64,000 bases of DNA from Marmoricola sp. URHB0036. Its GTDB lineage: Bacteria; Actinomycetota; Actinomycetes; Propionibacteriales; Nocardioidaceae. Shown one piece after another: positions 6,008 through 15,804 of this stretch (its first letter is position 1; each line of letters starts with the position of its first letter). The DNA is taken from the NCBI RefSeq assembly GCF_000426045.1, contig NZ_AUEP01000019.1, forward strand, positions 1-64,000. The letters are read 5' to 3'. The notes beneath the pieces were generated by a model. It ran no database searches and was not told where the DNA came from. It was given only the letters and a program-made list of their open reading frames with translations. The position numbers were made by a program, and so were the translations under genes.

Positions 6008-7453
6008 TCAGGGCGCTCGTTGCACCGGCCCGACGTGGGCCGGGAGCGCGTCCACGAGCTCCTCGGCCAGGAGCAGGTCCGAGGTCAGGTCGCGGTCGTG
6101 CATGTCCGGTACGCCGCCGTCGCGCTCGTCGAGGTAGGCCATCGCGGCGCTCAGCGAGGGCGGGTGCGCGCCCTGCATCCGCAGGCAGCGCAGCGAGGCG
6201 ACCAGCTCGGCGGCGAGTACGGCGCGGAACCGCGACACCGCCTCGAGGGCCTGCTGGGCCGCAAGCGTGGCGAACGAGGCGTCCTCCTCGACCCCGCGGG
6301 AGAGCGTGACGGCCTGGATCCCGGCCGGGGTCGCGAGCGCGCGCAGCTCGGCGAGCGCCGACGCCGCGCTGTACTCCACGATCATCACGCCGGACGCCGC
6401 CGGGGTGCCGTCGCCCAGGAACGGGTGCAGTCCGGTGTACGCCGGCTCGGCCAGCATGGTCAGCCGGGCCAGGCTGAGCTGTGCCGACTGGGCGACCGCC
6501 AGCACGAGGGAGTCCAGCGACTGCACGAGGTACGCCGCGTGGAAGGCGCCGTGATGGGCCACCCCGAGCCGCGGGGAGACGATCGGGTTCTCCGAGGGGC
6601 TGTTGGCCATGGTGACGACCACCTGCTCGGCGAAGGCGAGCCGGTCCATCAGCGCGCCGTGCACCTGCGGGAAGGTGCGCAGGCTGAACGGGTCCTGGAT
6701 CCGTGCCGGCACCGGGTCCGGCCCGATCAGCTCGCGCATCGTCCGGGACACCCACTGTGCTCCCGGGAACGGAGTGGCCACCTCGACGGCCGGGCTGAAC
6801 GCCTCGGCGTTGCCGCGGACGGCGGCGAAGTCCATGGCCGCGATGACCGCGGCGCTCCGGGCCAGCCGGTCCAGGTCGGCCACCGCCAGCGCCGCGTCGG
6901 CCAGCACGGCCGCGTTGCTCGACATGAAGGTCAGCGCGTCGCCCGGGCCGAACTCGGTGGTGGCGAGGAACTCCGGCGTGCTGGACCGTTCGCCGCACAG
7001 CACCAGTGCGGTGGTCGCGAGCGCCGCGAGGTCGGCGGTGCCCACGCTGCCGCCCTCGCGGACCGGGGGCAGCGCGTCGACGGACAGCATCGCTTCCAGG
7101 GCGTCGAGGACCGCGGGGCTGATCCCGTTGCCGTCGGAGGCCAGCTGGTTGAGCCGGATCAGCAGCATCGCCCGCACCCGCTGGGCCGAGCGCAGCTCGC
7201 CGGAGCTGGTCGCGTGCGACCGCAGCAGCTGCAGGGCCTGGGAGTCGGGGTCGGGCTGGACGAGCGCCTTGTTGGCGCCGACCCCCGTCGAGCGGCCGTA
7301 GATGGGCCGCTCTTCGGCGACCCCGTCGGCGAAGGTGTGCGACGCCTCGACGCGCTCGCGGGCCGACGGCTCGACGCGGACGGTGTCACCGCGACGTGCG
7401 ACAGTCACGATCTCGTCCAGCGAGAGGTGGCTGCCGTCCAGGGGCAGGGTCAA
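6008..7453 (-). CDS. Histidine/aromatic amino acid ammonia-lyase superfamily protein without the Ala-Ser-Gly triad
   Basis: A 481-residue member of the lyase superfamily that includes HutH, phenylalanine ammonia-lyase and ergothionase. Family landmarks are present: the catalytic Tyr loop IYGRSTGVGANK (Tyr52), QDPFSLRTFPQVHG (253-266), NSPSENPIV (284-292) and a VEEDASF segment near 388. The segment that normally reads GSVGASGDLAPLA and forms the MIO electrophile reads GSVGTADLAALA (135-146), so the Ala-Ser-Gly triad is missing. Known MIO-free members act on trimethylammonium substrates (ergothionase). The gene is divergent from an IclR regulator and a betaine transporter. Substrate is inferred only; a degenerate inactive lyase is the alternative. 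Confidence 0.85.
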   Translation of the reverse strand: MTLPLDGSHLSLDEIVTVARRGDTVRVEPSARERVEASHTFADGVAEERPIYGRSTGVGANKALVQPDPDSQALQLLRSHATSSGELRSAQRVRAMLLIRLNQLASDGNGISPAVLDALEAMLSVDALPPVREGGSVGTADLAALATTALVLCGERSSTPEFLATTEFGPGDALTFMSSNAAVLADAALAVADLDRLARSAAVIAAMDFAAVRGNAEAFSPAVEVATPFPGAQWVSRTMRELIGPDPVPARIQDPFSLRTFPQVHGALMDRLAFAEQVVVTMANSPSENPIVSPRLGVAHHGAFHAAYLVQSLDSLVLAVAQSAQLSLARLTMLAEPAYTGLHPFLGDGTPAASGVMIVEYSAASALAELRALATPAGIQAVTLSRGVEEDASFATLAAQQALEAVSRFRAVLAAELVASLRCLRMQGAHPPSLSAAMAYLDERDGGVPDMHDRDLTSDLLLAEELVDALPAHVGPVQRAP

Positions 7454-7534
7454 ATCGGACTCCTCGGGCGATCGCCCAGATTGGCTCCCGTGAAGCCTTC
7501 CGGATCGGCGGGGGATGGTGCAATAGTCTCAGCC

Positions 7535-7554
7535 AGCGGAAATGCGCTTCTGCA
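7535..7554. promoter_or_regulatory. Candidate IclR-family operator in the divergent promoter region
   Basis: AGCGGAAATGCGCTTCTGCA is an imperfect inverted repeat (GCGGAA, 6-base centre, TTCTGC; one mismatch) in the 164-bp gap between the lyase and iclR-type starts. IclR proteins often bind GGAA/TTCC-type palindromes. The possible -10 CAATAGTCT lies just to its left. It is proposed from position and symmetry only. Confidence 0.35.
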
Positions 7555-7617
7555 CAGTGAAACACCACGAAACCGATCGCCTATCCCAGTAGCCCGACGG
7601 CCCGTGAGGGGGCACCG

Positions 7618-8367
7618 ATGACGTCGCAGGTCGCTTCCGGCAGCCGCGAGCCCCTCGGTGCCCACGAGGTCGGCGACGCGATCGCGCGGGGGCGAGGCAG
7701 CTCGACGCGCACCGTCGAGCGCGCGCTGGCGCTGCTCTCCGAGGTCTGCACCCGTGAGGCCGTCACGCTCACCGAGTGCGCGCGCCACACCGGGCTGCCG
7801 GCCAGTACGGCGCTGCGCCTGCTGCGGACCCTGGAGAGCCGTGGGTTCATCAGCCGCGACGACGACGGTGGCAGCTTCCGTGCCGGTCCCCGGATGATCC
7901 AGCTCGGCGCGACCTCCCTCGGCCGCAACGAGCTGGCCCGGCTCGCCCGTCCAGCCCTCGACCGCATCGGGACGGCGACCCACGAGTCGGCGTACCTCTC
8001 CATCAAGGGCGTCGACGAGACGGCCATCTACATCGCCCAGGTCGAGGGCACCCACGCGGTCCGGCACAGCAGCTGGATCGGGCGCGCGGTGCCGATGAAC
8101 GGACTGGCCGTCGGGCGGGTGCTCCGGGGTGACATCCCTCCCGAGGGGTACGTCGCCGGACATGACCTGCTCGAGCCGGACGTGACGGCGATCGTCGCGC
8201 CGGTGCGCTACCCGGGCGGCATCGCCGGGGCGCTCAGCGTGCTGGGCCCGACGTACCGGATCGACCAGGACACCATGCACGCCTACGGCCGCATCGTGGC
8301 CACCGAGGCAGCCGAGCTCAGCGCCCGACTGGGCTCGGTACCCGACGAGCAGGAGACCCGAGCATGA
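7618..8367 (+). CDS. IclR-family transcriptional regulator
   Basis: A 249-residue regulator with a winged helix-turn-helix at about 28-85 (STRTVERALALLSEV, TLTECARHTGLPASTALRLL, LESRGFISRD) and a C-terminal effector-binding domain from about 100. The ATG has a GAGGGGGC ribosome site. It is divergent from the lyase and its stop overlaps the transporter ATPase start by 4 bp. It therefore probably controls both units in response to the imported substrate or a breakdown product. The ligand is not deducible. Confidence 0.92.
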   Translation: MTSQVASGSREPLGAHEVGDAIARGRGSSTRTVERALALLSEVCTREAVTLTECARHTGLPASTALRLLRTLESRGFISRDDDGGSFRAGPRMIQLGATSLGRNELARLARPALDRIGTATHESAYLSIKGVDETAIYIAQVEGTHAVRHSSWIGRAVPMNGLAVGRVLRGDIPPEGYVAGHDLLEPDVTAIVAPVRYPGGIAGALSVLGPTYRIDQDTMHAYGRIVATEAAELSARLGSVPDEQETRA

Positions 8368-9458
8368 TCCGCTTCGACCAGGCCACCAAGCGCTACCCCG
8401 ACGGCACCGTCGCCGTGGACACGCTCGAGCTGGAGGCGCCGTCCGGCAAGATCACCGTGCTGGTCGGTCCGTCCGGCTGTGGCAAGACGACCTCGCTCCG
8501 GATGATCAACCGGATGATCGAGCCGACCTCCGGCACCATCTGGCTCGACGACACCGACACCGCGAGCATGCCGGCCCACGAGCTGCGTCGTCAGATCGGC
8601 TACGTCATCCAGCACGCCGGGCTGTTCCCCCACCGCACCATCGTGGACAACATCGCCACCGTGCCCTTCCTGCTCGGCACCGACAAGAAGAAGGCCCGAG
8701 CCCGGGCGATGGAGCTCCTCGAGCGCGTGGGGCTGGACCCTGCCTTCGCCAAGCGCTACCCGGCCCAGCTCTCCGGCGGACAGCAGCAGCGCGTCGGCGT
8801 CGCACGCGCCCTCGCCGCCGACCCGCCGGTGATGCTCATGGACGAGCCGTTCTCGGCAGTCGACCCGGTCGTTCGCGACCAGCTCCAGGACGAGTTCCTG
8901 CGGCTGCAGGGCGAGCTCGGCAAGACCATCGTCTTCGTCACCCACGACATCGACGAGGCGATCAAGCTCGGCGACCAGGTGGCCGTGCTCCGTGTCGGAG
9001 GACACCTGGCCCAGCTGGCCGCTCCGGCCGAGCTGCTCTCGCGGCCCGTCGACGCGTTCGTCGCGGGCTTCGTGGGACGTGACCGCGGCTACCGCGCCCT
9101 CGGGTTCAGCAGTGCCGGCACCATCCCGACCCGTGACGAACCCACCGTCGCGATGGGCGAGTCACTCCCGACCGGCGGCGACGAGTGGCTGCTCGCGGTC
9201 GACGGGTCCGGCGCACCGCAGGGCTGGCTGCACCTCACCGACGAGCCGCACGGCGCGGTGGTGGAGGACCCCATGCTCTACCGCGGCGGCACCCTCGCCA
9301 CCCAGGGCGGCACCCTGCGCAGCGCGCTGGACGCCTGCCTGTCCTCGCCGTCCGGCCGCGGCGTGGTCATCGACGAGTCAGGCCGGCTGGTCGGGTCGAC
9401 CACGGCCCGCGAGGTGCTGGCGCTGATCGAGGCCCAGGTGGAAGGTGCGGTCACATGA
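8364..9458 (+). CDS. OpuC/ProV-type betaine ABC transporter ATP-binding protein
   Basis: Powers uptake of a quaternary amine. The 364-residue protein has Walker A GPSGCGKT (35-42), the signature LSGGQQQR (136-143) and Walker B LMDEP (158-162), all typical of the osmoprotectant/quaternary amine transporter group. Beyond about residue 245 is a C-terminal region with a weak CBS-like pattern ending GRLVGSTTAREVLALIEA. This domain senses ionic strength in some relatives, but only one degenerate unit is visible. ATGA overlaps join it to the genes on both sides. Confidence 0.92.
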   Translation: MIRFDQATKRYPDGTVAVDTLELEAPSGKITVLVGPSGCGKTTSLRMINRMIEPTSGTIWLDDTDTASMPAHELRRQIGYVIQHAGLFPHRTIVDNIATVPFLLGTDKKKARARAMELLERVGLDPAFAKRYPAQLSGGQQQRVGVARALAADPPVMLMDEPFSAVDPVVRDQLQDEFLRLQGELGKTIVFVTHDIDEAIKLGDQVAVLRVGGHLAQLAAPAELLSRPVDAFVAGFVGRDRGYRALGFSSAGTIPTRDEPTVAMGESLPTGGDEWLLAVDGSGAPQGWLHLTDEPHGAVVEDPMLYRGGTLATQGGTLRSALDACLSSPSGRGVVIDESGRLVGSTTAREVLALIEAQVEGAVT

Positions 9459-10159
9459 CGGCGCTGATCCCGCTCGCCTCGGCCAGCTCGTCGCCGTGGC
9501 ACTTCTTCGCCTACTTCATGGACAACACCAGCAAGGTCCTCGGCCTGCTCTGGGCGCACACCTGGCTCTCGGTGGTGCCCGTCGTCATTGCGCTCATCCT
9601 GGCGCTGCCGCTCGGCTGGCTGGCCCGCCGCTACCAGTGGGCCTACCCGCCGATGATGTCGCTGACCGGACTGCTCTACACGATCCCCTCGATCGCACTC
9701 TTCGTGCTGGTCCCGCCCATCCTGGGCCTGGACCCGCTGAGCCCGTTGCAGGTGCCGATCGCGCTGACGCTGTACTCGCTGGCACTGCTGGTGCGGGTGG
9801 TGGCCGACGGCCTGGCCGCCGTACCCCAGGAGACGGCGCAGGCGGCCACCGCTCTCGGCTACAAGCCCTTGGGCCTCTTCTTCCGCGTCGAGCTGCCGAT
9901 CGCCGTACCCGTGATCGCGGCCGGTCTGCGGGTCGCGGTCGTCGCCAACGTCAGCATCGTGACCGTGGCCGGGACCATCGGCTTCAAGAACCTCGGCCAG
10001 CTCTTCGACGAGGGGTTCAAGCTGTCCACGGACACGCCGTACTACCCGCCGATCGTGCTCGGCATCATCCTGTGCGTGCTGCTCGCCCTCGCCCTCGACG
10101 GGCTGGTCCTCCTGGGCAGCCGAATGCTGACCCCCTGGCGTAGGGCGGTGCGAGCATGA
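9455..10159 (+). CDS. Betaine ABC transporter permease (first)
   Basis: A 234-residue integral membrane protein with about five hydrophobic segments. Its cytoplasmic coupling loop AATALGYKPLGLFFRVELPI is the EAA motif of BPD-type permeases in OpuCB/OpuCD-like transporters. ATG at 9455 overlaps the ATPase stop (ATGA) and its end overlaps the second permease. It forms the membrane pore together with that permease. Confidence 0.92.
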   Translation: MTALIPLASASSSPWHFFAYFMDNTSKVLGLLWAHTWLSVVPVVIALILALPLGWLARRYQWAYPPMMSLTGLLYTIPSIALFVLVPPILGLDPLSPLQVPIALTLYSLALLVRVVADGLAAVPQETAQAATALGYKPLGLFFRVELPIAVPVIAAGLRVAVVANVSIVTVAGTIGFKNLGQLFDEGFKLSTDTPYYPPIVLGIILCVLLALALDGLVLLGSRMLTPWRRAVRA

Positions 10160-10929
10160 TCGGCGACGTCTTCAACTGGCTCACCGACCCGTCCCACTGG
10201 ACGAGCACCGCCTTCGACACCGGCATCTGGGACCAGCTCCTCGCGCACATCGGGTTCACCCTGATCGCGCTGGCCATCTCGCTGGTGATCGCGCTGCCGC
10301 TCGGGCTGTGGATCGGCCACACCGGCAAGGCGACCTGGATCATCAGCGTCGCCAACGCCGCCCGGGCCCTGCCGACGGTCGGTGTCCTCGTGCTGCTGGT
10401 CGTGATCATCGCGCCGCACTTCTACGGCCGCACCAACAACGGCTACCTGATCCCGACCGAGATCGTGCTCGTGCTGCTGGCCGTGCCGCCGATCCTGTCC
10501 AACACCTACGCCGGGGTGCAGAACGTCGAGCCGTCGGTACGCGACGCTGCCTTCGGCATGGGGATGACCGGGCCACAGGTGCTCTTCCGCGTCGAGCTGC
10601 CCAACTCGCTGCCACTGATCTTCTCCGGCTTCCGGTCCGCGACGCTGCAGGTGATCGCGACGGCCACCATCGCGGCGTACGTCACCCTGGGCGGCCTCGG
10701 GCGGTTCATCTACGACGGCCTCGCCCAGCAGGACTACCCGCAGATGATCAGCGGCGGACTCCTCGTGGCGGCCCTGGCCCTCATCGCCGACCTGTTGCTC
10801 GCCCTCGTCCAGCGCTACACGGTCTCCCGCGGGATCACCGGACGCACCCGCCGCCAGGACCGCGGCTCGCGCGGACCCGACTCCCGCACCGCCGTACTCA
10901 CCGAAGAACTCGTCTCGGAGGCCACCTGA
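10156..10929 (+). CDS. Betaine ABC transporter permease (second)
   Basis: A 257-residue permease with an EAA-type loop (DAAFGMGMTGPQVLFRVELP) followed by GFRSATLQVIATATIAAYV, a strongly conserved stretch of OpuCD-like permeases. The C-terminus is a basic, charged tail. ATG overlaps the preceding permease by 4 bp. The 59 bp that follow hold a ribosome site (CAGGAGAAG) for the binding protein. Confidence 0.92.
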   Translation: MIGDVFNWLTDPSHWTSTAFDTGIWDQLLAHIGFTLIALAISLVIALPLGLWIGHTGKATWIISVANAARALPTVGVLVLLVVIIAPHFYGRTNNGYLIPTEIVLVLLAVPPILSNTYAGVQNVEPSVRDAAFGMGMTGPQVLFRVELPNSLPLIFSGFRSATLQVIATATIAAYVTLGGLGRFIYDGLAQQDYPQMISGGLLVAALALIADLLLALVQRYTVSRGITGRTRRQDRGSRGPDSRTAVLTEELVSEAT

Positions 10930-10988
10930 CCCACACCGCTCGTGCTCCAGACCCCGGCACACATGTGAAAACACACCAGGAGAAGAAC

Positions 10989-11927
10989 ATGAAAACCAAG
11001 CTTGTCGCACTCGCCGCCGTCGCGACGGCCCTCACGATGGGAGTCAGCGGATGCGGGTCGAGCTCGTCGTCCTCGGGTTCCAAGGGTGATGGCACCATCG
11101 CGTCGCAGATGATCTTCGGCGGCCCGCCCGAGTTCAAGACCCGTCCCGACGGCATCCCGGGCCTGAAGAAGAACTACGACGTCTCCTTCGGCAAGTACAC
11201 CGTCACCGACGTCGGTGGACCGGTCACCGTGAACGCCCTGAAGCGGGGCCAGGTGGACGCCGCCGACCTGTTCACGACCGACCCGTCGATCGCGGCCAAC
11301 GACTTCGTCATCCTGGAGGACCCGAAGAGCAACTTCGCGGCCCAGAACGTGGTGCCGATCATCACCAAGTCCAAGGCGACCGACGGCGTCAAGCAGGTGA
11401 TCAACGGAATCCAGGGCAAGCTCACCACCGAGGTCCTCGGCGGACTGCTCGGCAAGGTCGTCAACGACAAGGCCGACCCGGCCGACGTCGCCAAGGGCTT
11501 CCTCTCCGACAACGGGCTCGACACCACGGGCACCGCAGCCAAGGGTCAGAGCCTCACGGTGGGTTCGGCCAACTTCCCGGAGAACGTGATCCTGGGCGAG
11601 ATCTACGCCCAGGCCCTCGAGGCCCAGGGCGCGACCATCAGCAAGAAGATGAACATCGGTGCCCGGCCGAAGTACTGGGAGTCACTCAAGCAGGGGTCGA
11701 TCGACCTGTTCCCCGAGTACACCGGCTCGATCCTGGTGTACATCGACAAGAACAGCACGGCGACCAGCCCCGACGACGTCTACGCCGCGCTCGGCAAGGC
11801 GCTGCCCAGCAACCTGGTGGCCCTCGACCAGGCGGACGCACAGGACAGCGACGCGATCGTGGTCACCAAGGAGACCGCGGACAAGTTCAAGCTGAAGACG
11901 ATCGCGGACCTCGCCAAGAAGGGCTGA
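10989..11927 (+). CDS. Circularly permuted OpuAC-family betaine-binding lipoprotein
   Basis: A 312-residue lipoprotein: signal peptide, lipobox VSGC (Cys22), Ser-rich linker. In the usual glycine betaine/choline-binding fold the half starting VGS.NF.E comes first and the half with GGP.F..R.DG..GL second. Here the order is reversed: GGPPEFKTRPDGIPGLKK through TTDPSIA, LEDPKSNF and KLTTEVLGGLL (about 44-178) comes first. SLTVGSANFPENVILGEI, GSIDLFPEYTG and a terminal LKTIADLAKKG (about 188-311) follow. The old N- and C-termini are joined and the protein now begins and ends at the hinge. Aromatic residues in FPEYTG could form a cation-pi cage for a trimethylammonium group. It follows the permeases and delivers their substrate. 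Confidence 0.88.
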   Translation: MKTKLVALAAVATALTMGVSGCGSSSSSSGSKGDGTIASQMIFGGPPEFKTRPDGIPGLKKNYDVSFGKYTVTDVGGPVTVNALKRGQVDAADLFTTDPSIAANDFVILEDPKSNFAAQNVVPIITKSKATDGVKQVINGIQGKLTTEVLGGLLGKVVNDKADPADVAKGFLSDNGLDTTGTAAKGQSLTVGSANFPENVILGEIYAQALEAQGATISKKMNIGARPKYWESLKQGSIDLFPEYTGSILVYIDKNSTATSPDDVYAALGKALPSNLVALDQADAQDSDAIVVTKETADKFKLKTIADLAKKG

Positions 11928-11938
11928 TCTGCGCCGCC

Positions 11939-11971
11939 GACGCGCACGGGACCTCATGGCCCGTGCGCGTC
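11939..11971. terminator. Hairpin after the permuted binding protein gene
   Basis: A perfect 12-bp stem (GACGCGCACGGG and its complement) with a 9-base loop, 12 bp after the stop. It probably ends or attenuates the transporter transcript before the second binding protein gene. A possible -10 (TAGAGT, 12004-12009) follows. Confidence 0.6.
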
Positions 11972-12071
11972 GACGCGTCCGTCGGCGCCGGACCCCTGGT
12001 CGCTAGAGTCGTCCCGGACACGGACCAGAGGCCCTCCAGGGCCTGACTCGGGACAGCGAAGGCGGGATCGG

Positions 12072-13001
12072 ATGACCTCGGTACGACGGTTTCTCGTCGC
12101 CGTGGCAATCCTCCCGCTCCTGCTCACCGCGTCTGCGTGCGGCGGCGACCCGCCCGCGGCGGAGAAGGACCAGATGGTCACCATCGTCGGCCAGAACTTC
12201 ACCGAGGCCGACATCGTCACCCAGCTCTACAAGCTGCTCCTCGACAAGCAGGGCTTCGACACCGACGTCGAGAAGCTCGGTGCCCGCGACAGCTACCTCG
12301 GCGCCCTGGAGAAGGGTCGGGTGCAGGTGGCGGGCGACCAGCTCTCCTCCCTGACCGAGACGCTCAACCGCACCGCCAACGGCAACGACGCGACTCCGGT
12401 GGCGAGCTCCGACGTGCAGGCGACCCTGGGCCACCTGAAGACCCTGGGTGCGACGTACGGCCTGACGCCGCTGCGGCCTGCGCAGGCCGAGGACGCCATC
12501 GCCTACGCGGTCACCAAGGAGTACGCCGCACAGCACGACCTGACCACGCTCAGTGACCTCGGCAAGCTCGACCAGCCGATCGCTCTCGCCGCCAACTCCG
12601 ACTGCGCCGAACGACCCGACTGCGGCAAGGGGCTGCAGAACGTCTACGGCATCACCCTCGGCAAGATCGAGCCCCTCGGCTTCGGCACGCAGGACACCAA
12701 GAACGCGCTCGTCAACGGCGAGGTGCAGCTCGGCCAGGTCAGCACGACCGACGGCAGCCTCGACCGGGCCGGGCTCGTCGTGCTCCAGGACGACAAGGAC
12801 TGGCAGAACGCCGAGAACCTCGTGCCGGTCGTCAACAGCGCCTGGTTGAAGAAGAACCCCAAGGCCGCGGACGCTCTCGACCAGCTCTCCGGCGTCCTCA
12901 CCACGGCCGACCTCACCTCCCTCAACGCGCAGGTGGACGGGCAGCGTCTCGAGGCCAGCCAGGTCGCCGAGGACTACCTGAAGGAGAAGGGGCTGATCTG
13001 A
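12072..13001 (+). CDS. OpuAC-family betaine-binding lipoprotein, usual domain order
   Basis: A 309-residue lipoprotein with lipobox ending ASAC (Cys23). The domains are in the normal order: VTIVGQNFTEADIVTQLY first, then YGLTPLRPAQAEDAIAYAV, LTTLSDLG and a second half ending VAEDYLKEKGLI. The ligand loop that usually reads DLYPEYTGT is replaced by VAGDQLSSLTETL, so its ligand may differ from that of its neighbour. Cys178 and Cys184 could form a disulfide. It follows a hairpin and a possible separate promoter, so it may be expressed independently of the transporter genes. It could serve the same permeases or be a regulator or decoy. Confidence 0.85.
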   Translation: MTSVRRFLVAVAILPLLLTASACGGDPPAAEKDQMVTIVGQNFTEADIVTQLYKLLLDKQGFDTDVEKLGARDSYLGALEKGRVQVAGDQLSSLTETLNRTANGNDATPVASSDVQATLGHLKTLGATYGLTPLRPAQAEDAIAYAVTKEYAAQHDLTTLSDLGKLDQPIALAANSDCAERPDCGKGLQNVYGITLGKIEPLGFGTQDTKNALVNGEVQLGQVSTTDGSLDRAGLVVLQDDKDWQNAENLVPVVNSAWLKKNPKAADALDQLSGVLTTADLTSLNAQVDGQRLEASQVAEDYLKEKGLI

Positions 13002-13002
13002 C

Positions 13003-15804
13003 CTGAGCGATCTCCGAGGCGCACCCCTGGCGCGACGAGTCGCGGGTCGGGCGCGCCGCATCCTCCGCGGGCCCCGCGCGCCGGAGGTTGCCTTCGTCGT
13101 CACGGTCTCGGAGACGCAGGCGCGCCATCTCGAGGAGTGCCTCTCCTCGGTACGTGCCCAGACGGGCGTCCGGCCGGAGGTCGTGCTGGTGCCGTGGGGT
13201 TCGTGGCGGAGTACGCCGCCGGACGACTCCGCGCCCCCCGAGGAGTCGCTGGCCGCCGCTCGCCGGGCCGGACTGGCGCTCAGCCGTGCGGAGTACGTCC
13301 GGTTCATCGAGGCGACCGACACCACGCCGGCCGGGGCCACCGCCGCCCTGCTCACCAGGCTTCGGCGCTCCGGCGCCCCCACCGCAGCCGGCGTCTCCGA
13401 GCGCATCGACGCGACCTGGCGAGACCGTGCCCACCGACCGGCGCCCGAGGTGGCGCTCGACCTCGGTGCTCGGCTGTTCCGGGTCGTCGACGAGGTCCTC
13501 GAGGCCCTCGACTTCGAGCCGGTCCACGGGCGCTTCGCCGACGCGATGCTGGCCGGCCTCGACGTCGCCACGATCCCGGACGTCGTGCACCACGACCACC
13601 ACCGCGAGCACGGTCTGCCGTTCGGTCACCTGCCGCGCCGGGCAGCCGAGGTCCGCGCGCTGGCTGCGGTCGTCGAGGACACGACTCGCAAGCTGGCCGA
13701 GGAGCTGGTCCCGGCCTGGGCCGCGGGACTGCTGGATCGCCGGCTGCCGTCGCTGGTCGAGGACGTGGAGTCCTTCGACGGCGAGACCTGGGACGCCCTG
13801 CGTCGTACAACGCAACGGCTGGTCGATCTCGCCGACCTCACCGCCGTACGCGTCGAGGCCCGGCTGCAGGCCTGGCTGGTGGCCGAGGGACGTCGCGACG
13901 ACCTCACGGCCCTGGTGCTGCGCCGCTGGCGCGAGCCCGACGACTTCCCCACCCACGTGGACGCCGAGGGTCGGATCACCGCCGACTTCGGGGTCGAGGC
14001 GCCGGTCGAGGTGTTGACCCTCGACGAGCGCGAGACGCCGCTCTGGGCGACCGTGCGGCATGCCGACGCCGGAGCCATCGACCTGGTCGTCATCGTCCGT
14101 GGTGTGCCGTCCGGCCCGGACGATCGCGTCACCCTGCACGCCGGCGGGCACGTGATCGAGGCGGAGCCGTCCGGCGACGAGCACGCCGACCGGATCGCCG
14201 CCGAGTCGTGGACCGACCACCGCGCCGGCGGCTGGCGGCTGCGGGTCACCGAGGCCGATCTCGCGGGCGAGCTCGAGTACCGCTCTGGCGCCGTCGTACG
14301 CCGGGGACCGCTGCCCGCCGTGCCGTCGTCGCCGAAGGCCGGCCCTCGCCTGACCGCCCTCGGCTGGGACGGCGAGTCGGCCACGCTGACCATCTCCACG
14401 CCGGGCCAGGTGACCGTGACCGGCCCGGGCGGCGAGGTCTCCGGCACGACCGACGGCGACGGAACCGTCGTGCTCCGGCTGGTCGTCGACGTGTGGGGGC
14501 TGGGGGAGCGCCCGCTGCCCCTGGGTGGTTACGAGCTCCGCCTCGACGGGCGCCCGGTCGCCGCAGATCCGCTCGAGCTCCGCGGCGGCCGACACCGCCT
14601 CACCGTGCGCGAGAGCGGCGGCACGGCCCGGCTGGTGCTCGACGACCTGCGCGGCCCTGACGAGGTGGGTCCGCATGCGCAACGTCGCCTCCAGCAGGAG
14701 TACGCCGCCGTCACCGAGCCGGTCGACCCGGGGCTCGCGTACTTCCAGTCCTACACCGGCCAGTGGCCTACCGACAGCCCGCTGGCGATCCACGAGAGCC
14801 TGCGCCGCCAGCGGCCCGACGTACGCGTCCGCTGGTGCGTCGACGACCCGGGAGTGCCCCTTCCCGACGGCGCCGAGCCGGTGCTGATCCGCAGTCGCGA
14901 GTGGTACGACACCCTCGCCCGCGCCCGCTGGATCGTCACCAACATCGAGATGGAGCGCTGGTTCCGACGTCGCCCCGAGCAGCGGCTGCTGCAGACCTGG
15001 CACGGCAACCCCGGCAAGGTGATGGGACTCGGTCTGTGGCGCGCCAACGGGCTGACCCCGGGCCGCATCGAGCAGAACCTCGACCACGGACCGCGCAACT
15101 GGACGCTGCTGATGAGCCCGAGCCCGGAGATGACCGAGCACTACCGACGTGAGTTCGCCTACGACGGGCCGGTGGTCGACCAGGGGTACGCCCGCGACGA
15201 CGCGCTCCTCGCCCCGTCGGCCCCGCACGTGCGTGCGGAATCGCGTCGCCGGCTGGGCATCGGCGACGACCAGGCGGCCGTGCTCTACGCCCCCACCTGG
15301 CGCGACACGATGGCCACCAACTACCGGGCAGCCCGGTTGCAGGACGACCTCGACCTCGCCCGGCTGGCCGACCTGCTCGGTCCGGCGTACGTCGTGCTGC
15401 TGCGTGGCCACCGGTTCCATGCCCGTCATCCCGAGCGGCCTCGTGGCGCACGGATCCTCGACGTCACGGACTACCCCGAGATCAACCACCTGATCCTGGC
15501 CGCCGACGTCGCGGTCCTCGACTACTCCTCGCTGCGCTTCGACATCGGTGTCGTCGGCACCCCGATGGTGTTCATGGTTCCCGACCTCGCGGCCTACGAG
15601 GAGGGTCGCGGGTTCCTCTACGACTTCCGGTCCTCGGCCCCGGGCCCGTTGCTGGCCACGACCGAGGACGTCGCGACCGCACTGCGCGACCTGGAGGCCC
15701 TGCGCCGCGTCCACGCGGCCGACTACGCCGCGTTCCAGGCCCGCTTCCACGCCGGCCAGGACGGCCATGCCGCTGATCGAGCCGTCTCCGCGTTCTTCGA
15801 CTGA
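13003..15804 (+). CDS. Teichoic-acid type glycerol/ribitol-phosphate transferase with a degenerate GT2-like N-terminus
   Basis: The C-terminal part (about 560-930) is a CDP-glycerol glycerophosphotransferase (TagF/TarL-type) domain: TWHGNPGKVMGLG, VLYAPTWRDT, LRGHRFH, VTDYPEIN, LDYSSLRFD. Such enzymes polymerise glycerol- or ribitol-phosphate at the membrane. The N-terminus resembles a GT2 glycosyltransferase (EVAFVVTVSETQARHLEECL) but lacks the DDGS and DXD metal motifs, so it is probably not catalytic. The only upstream in-frame start that keeps this region is CTG at 13003, 1 bp after the previous stop and 12 bases from AAGGAGAAGG. The first GTG (13183) would delete 60 residues of the GT2-like fold. 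From the CTG the protein is 933 residues. Confidence 0.8.
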   Translation: MSDLRGAPLARRVAGRARRILRGPRAPEVAFVVTVSETQARHLEECLSSVRAQTGVRPEVVLVPWGSWRSTPPDDSAPPEESLAAARRAGLALSRAEYVRFIEATDTTPAGATAALLTRLRRSGAPTAAGVSERIDATWRDRAHRPAPEVALDLGARLFRVVDEVLEALDFEPVHGRFADAMLAGLDVATIPDVVHHDHHREHGLPFGHLPRRAAEVRALAAVVEDTTRKLAEELVPAWAAGLLDRRLPSLVEDVESFDGETWDALRRTTQRLVDLADLTAVRVEARLQAWLVAEGRRDDLTALVLRRWREPDDFPTHVDAEGRITADFGVEAPVEVLTLDERETPLWATVRHADAGAIDLVVIVRGVPSGPDDRVTLHAGGHVIEAEPSGDEHADRIAAESWTDHRAGGWRLRVTEADLAGELEYRSGAVVRRGPLPAVPSSPKAGPRLTALGWDGESATLTISTPGQVTVTGPGGEVSGTTDGDGTVVLRLVVDVWGLGERPLPLGGYELRLDGRPVAADPLELRGGRHRLTVRESGGTARLVLDDLRGPDEVGPHAQRRLQQEYAAVTEPVDPGLAYFQSYTGQWPTDSPLAIHESLRRQRPDVRVRWCVDDPGVPLPDGAEPVLIRSREWYDTLARARWIVTNIEMERWFRRRPEQRLLQTWHGNPGKVMGLGLWRANGLTPGRIEQNLDHGPRNWTLLMSPSPEMTEHYRREFAYDGPVVDQGYARDDALLAPSAPHVRAESRRRLGIGDDQAAVLYAPTWRDTMATNYRAARLQDDLDLARLADLLGPAYVVLLRGHRFHARHPERPRGARILDVTDYPEINHLILAADVAVLDYSSLRFDIGVVGTPMVFMVPDLAAYEEGRGFLYDFRSSAPGPLLATTEDVATALRDLEALRRVHAADYAAFQARFHAGQDGHAADRAVSAFFD

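Follow-up and report, generated by a model that had tools for sequence, protein, structure and literature searches.

The stretch analyzed here, called the window, comprises 64,000 nucleotides of Marmoricola sp. URHB0036 (contig NZ_AUEP01000019.1, positions 1 to 64,000; G+C 70%, host genome 4.83 Mb), and at positions 6008 to 13001 it carries a gene for a lyase that lacks the 4-methylideneimidazole-5-one (MIO) triad, divergent from the genes of an IclR-family regulator and an ABC importer. This lyase probably performs the last dedicated step of an aerobic breakdown of ergothioneine, in which hercynine would be split into trimethylamine and urocanate, the latter for the urocanase HutU. More tentatively, and with slightly less than even confidence, we propose that the large actinobacterial lyase family to which it belongs (at least 559 relatives) is a new enzyme, an N-alpha-trimethylhistidine trimethylamine-lyase, which would close the route from ergothioneine to glutamate in organisms that make ergothioneine, and that in one branch of the accompanying importers the type II binding protein is circularly permuted. 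An earlier note, made from the letters of this DNA, had described the same region as a candidate betaine uptake and cleavage system. All seven genes that it listed were found at this place, with the lyase gene divergent from the IclR and importer genes.

In the proposed route, ergothioneine would be processed by a thiol dioxygenase and an adjoining amidohydrolase, which would yield N-alpha-trimethylhistidine (hercynine) and sulfite. The MIO-less lyase would then eliminate trimethylamine by simple acid-base chemistry, in which Y52 probably takes up the beta-proton and H80 and E389 would hold the imidazole. The MIO group would be unnecessary because trimethylamine leaves readily without it, and elimination of ammonia by this enzyme would be unexpected since the triad is missing. 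The urocanate would enter the ordinary HutU pathway. The divergent ABC importer, presumably under the control of IclR as a putative substrate sensor, would take up the substrate, for which ergothioneine and hercynine are the likeliest candidates.

The lyase gene (6008..7453, minus strand) codes for 481 amino acids with a TTG start as called. The product matched PF00221 with 336 bits (cut-off 27.3), which places it in the aromatic amino acid lyase family, and was under the NCBIfam hutH cut-off (265 versus 539 bits). It reads GSVG-TADL where histidine ammonia-lyase (HAL) has GSVGASGDL, so that one residue is lost. One scan of named genomes gave at least 559 relatives, of which 80 were kept for examination, and the A/C-S-G triad was missing in all 80. 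The lack of MIO that the earlier note had reported was therefore confirmed, and a sequencing error in an otherwise normal HAL was ruled out. H80 and E389 were invariant across 29 aligned rows, the window included, which by HAL chemistry points to a substrate of the imidazole type. E360-Y361 stands where ergothionase has QK, the lysine of which we take to be catalytic, and the EY pattern was present in 78 of the 80 relatives. The lyase tree, built from 56 of 100 rows after near copies were thinned, placed 45 window-type rows on one side with a support of 100 (SH-aLRT, quick search), while the ergothionase 6s7j grouped on a long branch with two other rows (support 92). The window type came out nearer to HAL than to ergothionase with a support of only 60, so that the tree is compatible with a single loss of MIO or with more than one. 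The lyase is set apart from ergothionase both by its clade and by the missing lysine. The nearest named relatives among the matches listed were from Marmoricola and Nocardioides, and when 293 genomes sampled from the order were searched at E 1e-60, a window-type lyase was matched in 49. A literature search by title and start of abstract, with most subscription papers outside it, returned no publication on this lyase family or on a permuted OpuAC protein.

A second clade of MIO-less lyases (L051, L052, L093) was also seen. These have a motif of the GSGAAGEI type and a lysine at the ergothionase position, they are paired with a gene of the ornithine-cyclodeaminase family, and their loci contain the importer. 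On a Rhizobium plasmid, locus L100 (670-9497) holds a MIO-less lyase that is annotated hutH and has ergothionase as its best solved match (277 bits), together with an OpuC-type importer, a relative of ornithine cyclodeaminase, and two flavin monooxygenases.

The neighbours of the lyase were counted at the 80 loci. Neighbour labels came from BLAST clusters, of which only examples were verified against NCBIfam or Pfam, and the counts depended on our own gene caller and score limits. The lyases of L108, L161, and L173 went uncalled, as did one ATPase or more (L117), and at 25 of the 80 loci the flanks were shortened or the lyase was uncalled, so all counts are lower bounds. A ProV-type ATPase of the same importer was present in the fetched stretch at 53 of the 80 loci, and in 34 of the 55 with full flanks. 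The distance between lyase and ATPase could be measured in 51 loci; it was below 1 kb in 46, and the two genes were on opposite strands in all 51. A search for linkage between MIO-less lyases and OpuC-type operons was one of the checks suggested by the earlier note, and the data bore its expectation out. A thiol dioxygenase of the cysteine dioxygenase (CDO) type was found at 35 of the 80 loci, the amidohydrolase at 21, and both at 19. LacI regulators occurred at 40 loci and window-type IclR regulators at 11, while a HAL-type lyase and a urocanase were each labelled at 18 (among the HAL-labelled loci is L174, where the labelled lyase is itself MIO-less). Three or more genes of the egtA-D type were present at 22 loci. 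In Thermomonospora (L157) the row runs hutF, M20, hutU, HAL, IclR, importer, lyase, LacI, amidohydrolase, dioxygenase, egtDCBA, and its egt genes were confirmed as NCBIfam equivalogs. On an Arthrobacter plasmid IclR, importer, urocanase, and lyase are consecutive.

Co-occurrence was analyzed across whole genomes with thresholds of E 1e-60 for the window-type lyase and 1e-20 for absence of the amidohydrolase. Among 30 genomes, the amidohydrolase was present in 16 of 21 with the lyase versus 2 of 9 without it (P = 0.013, ignoring kinship). The lyase adjoins the permuted binding protein in 8 of the 10 family genomes that have the latter. The other two, G122 and G307, kept the permuted importer, the dioxygenase, and the amidohydrolase, and neither lyase, HAL, nor urocanase was found in them; such strains could gain the sulfur and go no further than hercynine. 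A pattern of this kind would be expected if the lyase feeds HutU. Among 25 genomes, the absence of urocanase also coincided with that of another PF00221 lyase of lower score (12 of 21 versus 0 of 4), but P was 0.096 and the link was set aside; for G295, G303, and G306 the score was the sole guide to the lyase type, and G234, one of the four, has a weak PF00221 match.

The ergothioneine and histidine genes of the host were examined as well. The egtA, egtB, egtC, and egtD genes were above their cut-offs, an EgtE-like protein was below its own, and the one urocanase lies beside a normal HAL of the CSG type. The dioxygenase (G000:C5 60865) and the adjacent amidohydrolase (61431) are on another contig, C5. 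The dioxygenase matched PDB 8qfr, which is labelled cysteine dioxygenase, with 223 bits and the cysteine dioxygenase type 1 4ubg with 24 bits, and the Thermomonospora dioxygenase reached 279 bits against 8qfr. The entries 8qfl-8qfr probably represent an ergothioneine dioxygenase of a thermophilic actinobacterium. Nalivaiko, Vasseur and Seebeck reportedly described in 2024 an ergothioneine dioxygenase and a metal-dependent desulfinase that yield trimethylhistidine and sulfur dioxide. The amidohydrolase has a weak resemblance to ACMSD. All eight urocanases checked (that of the host and seven from lyase loci) were canonical hutU, with 841-931 bits against a cut-off of 375, and all eight missed the thiourocanate-hydratase cut-off; the sulfur should therefore leave before the urocanase step. 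Ergothioneine or hercynine as the substrate, the suggestion of the earlier note, is thus in line with the egt-type genes (22 of 80 loci), the dioxygenase (35 of 80), and egtABCD of the host, but the lyase step would be assigned to hercynine and not to ergothioneine. PMC11818489 mentions an ergothioneine dioxygenase in a single sentence and gives no detail there. In Vibrio natriegens, ergothioneine is reported to disappear more slowly when hutH is deleted (PMC13276445), which hints that enzymes with the HAL fold play a part in its breakdown elsewhere too.

The first of the two binding lipoproteins (10989..11927, plus strand) matched the OpuAC domain PF04069 in two stretches whose order is swapped (169 bits, cut-off 21.2). 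Its residues 37-177 (11097..11519) correspond to the canonical C-terminal half and align to 7s7w residues 148-288, and its residues 188-310 (11550..11918) correspond to the canonical N-terminal half and align to residues 7-134 of EgtUC 9egh. About 10 residues join the old ends, and the new termini fall in the loop that precedes the GGPPEF-bearing strand. Of 24 genomes of the same genus, the host among them, 9 had the permuted form; it was present in 10 of 149 family genomes, and it also occurred in Catenulispora, Pseudofrankia, a Pseudonocardiales metagenome-assembled genome (MAG), and two Actinomycetota MAGs. In total, 15 distinct genomes including the window had the permuted form, versus 50 canonical gene calls. 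An assembly error was ruled out, as the swap was seen in 9 of 24 same-genus genomes and five more distant lineages. In the binding-protein tree, from which L103-L105 were omitted as duplicates of L079, L081, and L039, the permuted proteins formed one group (support 86) with the canonical L129 as neighbour (support 95), and the permutation therefore fits one event. An AlphaFold model of the permuted protein had a mean pLDDT of 53.3 from 9 sequences, probably too shallow an alignment, so the permutation is argued from sequence. On that basis binding protein 1 is a natural circular permutant, apparently of single origin.

The ligand pocket was compared with that of EgtUC, for which PMC9732360 gives F293, N339, Y341, Y419, Y443, E375, and R379. 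The first five of these are Y, D, D, F, and Q in all 15 permuted proteins, and the cage for a quaternary amine was not found. The same residues were present in 50, 45, 48, 48, and 46 of the 50 canonical binding proteins, respectively. E375 and R379 of that list were kept in 15/15 permuted proteins and in 49/50 and 50/50 canonical ones. The Rhizobium relative L100 keeps an aromatic cage (Y, N, Y, F, Y). Both binding proteins are separate lipoprotein open reading frames, and no EgtU-type fusion to the permease was seen. Binding protein 2 (12072..13001, plus strand), which is canonical in order (PF04069, 150 bits), is far diverged and branches with one relative, L082; most of its pocket positions differ, and in three genomes its relatives flank the lyase on the opposite side. 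Judged by its residues, it would have little claim to share a ligand with binding protein 1.

Several observations weigh against the proposed route. By the count used, 27 of the 80 loci had no such ATPase (L117, one of them, has permeases and a binding protein), and 15 Lentzea loci within these 27 had none of the labelled partners. The egt linkage is a matter of few independent events, mainly in Actinomadura, Actinoallomurus, and Thermomonospora. The amidohydrolase was missing in 5 of the 21 lyase genomes, one of which (G300) is a fragmented assembly. The identity of 8qfl as an ergothioneine dioxygenase is only probable, and the role of the amidohydrolase as a desulfinase is deduced from its place beside the dioxygenase. 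For the importer, the two Asp residues in place of Asn and Tyr of EgtUC would suit an ordinary amino acid at least equally well. In G004 (L086) an importer of this type is directly followed by canonical HAL, HutU, and an M20 hydrolase, and in G008, G011, and G015 (L087-L089) a CSG-type HAL is found a few kb away from one.

These importer findings bear on the alternative that survives best, namely that the importer is a Hut-system importer of histidine or another imidazole amino acid and that the lyase acts only on internally made hercynine or ergothioneine, with no betaine uptake. We consider this unlikely but a serious rival. It accounts for a pocket with Asp-x-Asp, Arg, and Glu instead of the aromatic cage, and for importers of this kind next to canonical HAL in G004, G008, G011, and G015, in none of which the window-type lyase (E 1e-60) or the amidohydrolase (1e-20) was found. 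It sits less easily with G122 and G307, which keep the permuted importer, the dioxygenase, and the amidohydrolase with no HAL or urocanase found, and with the divergence from the lyase in 51/51 measured loci. Because of the Asp/Arg pocket and the importers beside canonical HAL, histidine is a serious candidate ligand for the importer family, while in the permuted branch ergothioneine is favoured by the retention of the importer in G122 and G307; between ergothioneine or hercynine and histidine the chances are about even. The likeness to EgtU-type importers to which the earlier note pointed was not borne out, given D, D, and Q at N339, Y341, and Y443 of EgtUC (15/15 permuted proteins), the separate lipoprotein, and the four genomes with importers beside HAL and no detected lyase or amidohydrolase. 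In L087 a YedE/TsuA-like transporter of sulfur compounds (126 bits, under cut-off) was seen between the binding protein and HAL.

A lyase that acts as a direct ergothionase, splitting ergothioneine into trimethylamine and thiourocanate, is improbable. It would share the loss of MIO, but the window clade is separate (support 100) and without the ergothionase-type lysine, the 8 of 8 urocanases checked are canonical hutU and not thiourocanate hydratases, and such a lyase would leave the dioxygenase and amidohydrolase without a use. That the substrate is a different aromatic betaine, for example hypaphorine or tyrosine betaine, or that there is none, is very improbable: a good leaving group would suffice for MIO-less chemistry, but H80 and E389, presumed to hold an imidazole, are invariant in 29 rows, and the lyase is linked to egt-type, hut, and thiol dioxygenase genes. 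Osmoprotection by import of glycine betaine, choline, or carnitine, with the lyase as an unrelated neighbour, agrees with PF04069 and a ProV-type ATPase but is scarcely credible in view of the missing aromatic cage and the conserved divergent pairing with the lyase.

The other genes of the locus are all on the plus strand. The divergent intergenic region (7454..7617) is a possible operator and contains the blocks GGTGCAATAGT and CTGCACAGTGAAAC, common to two close relatives; a search for an IclR operator in 12 compared regions gave no common palindrome and only blocks shared by three close relatives. The IclR-family regulator (7618..8367) has HTH_IclR and IclR_C matches, the latter over positions 2-71 of 174 only (Pfam). 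The IclR relatives L106, L107, L114, and L080 had a similar best IclR_C stretch and a second short one, so this type of regulator would have an altered second half. The ProV/OpuCA-type ATPase (8364..9458; PF00005) had TIGR01186 as its best NCBIfam match (297 bits, under the cut-off of 326.6) and is followed by permease 1 (9455..10159) and permease 2 (10156..10929), both PF00528. Each junction from IclR to permease 2 has a 4-nt overlap, and these four genes therefore probably form one transcript. Between the binding-protein genes lies a strong hairpin (11938..11972), a possible terminator without a T-run; the folding energy of 11935-11995 was -40 kcal/mol (z -3.6), and 0 of 200 shuffles were as stable, so the gene for binding protein 2 may be outside the shared transcript. 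The single unit with two binding proteins proposed in the earlier note thus agrees with the overlaps from IclR to the permeases but may end before binding protein 2. The half-domain swap in binding protein 1, this hairpin, and the divergence of binding protein 2 had been overlooked there or call for caution. Immediately downstream of the operon (13183-15804) is a gene for a large protein with a CDP-glycerol glycerophosphotransferase domain.

If the proposed route is true, producers of ergothioneine would own a full oxygen-dependent breakdown of it for sulfur, nitrogen, and carbon, and ergothioneine turnover would be joined to histidine catabolism. Several hundred lyase relatives would gain a testable new function, a new source of trimethylamine would be added, and a further branch of the HAL fold would work without MIO. 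In the permuted binding protein the lipid anchor should now sit on the other lobe, which would make it a natural experiment in which anchor and lobe order change while the partner permeases stay.

Compared with known systems, the window lyase has its fold in common with HutH and keeps the equivalents of Y53/H83/R283/E414 (HAL numbering), and its proposed product is likewise urocanate. However, HutH has the MIO triad and the window lyase none, and F256 stands where HAL has tyrosine 280. Close relatives of the probable actinobacterial ergothioneine dioxygenase (8qfl-8qfr) occur in the host and in linkage with the lyase, beside an amidohydrolase where looked at; the reported dioxygenase/desulfinase route ends at trimethylhistidine, and the lyase would continue it. 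The EgtU importer of Firmicutes (PMC9732360) has an OpuAC-type domain and the E375/R379 positions in common with the window importer. In contrast to its fused domain and aromatic cage, the window importer has separate lipoproteins, a replaced cage, and a permuted first binding protein. TpMglB-2, a circularly permuted glucose-binding lipoprotein (PMC4990184), is like binding protein 1 a natural permutation of an ABC binding lipoprotein, but it has a sugar-binding type I fold, whereas binding protein 1 has a type II OpuAC domain and a different cut point. Ergothionase of Treponema denticola (6s7j/6s7q) shares with the lyase the PF00221 fold, the lack of MIO, and the one-residue loss in the triad. 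Elimination of trimethylamine from a histidine betaine is a trait of ergothionase and only proposed for the window lyase, which has 23% identity to it in a structural alignment, belongs to a separate clade, and has E360-Y361 instead of QK. Unlike that of ergothionase, its proposed substrate is free of sulfur, and a canonical urocanase would act next. We therefore propose that the lyase resembles ergothionase as a putative MIO-less trimethylamine lyase, one of another clade, with another substrate and an unusual importer.

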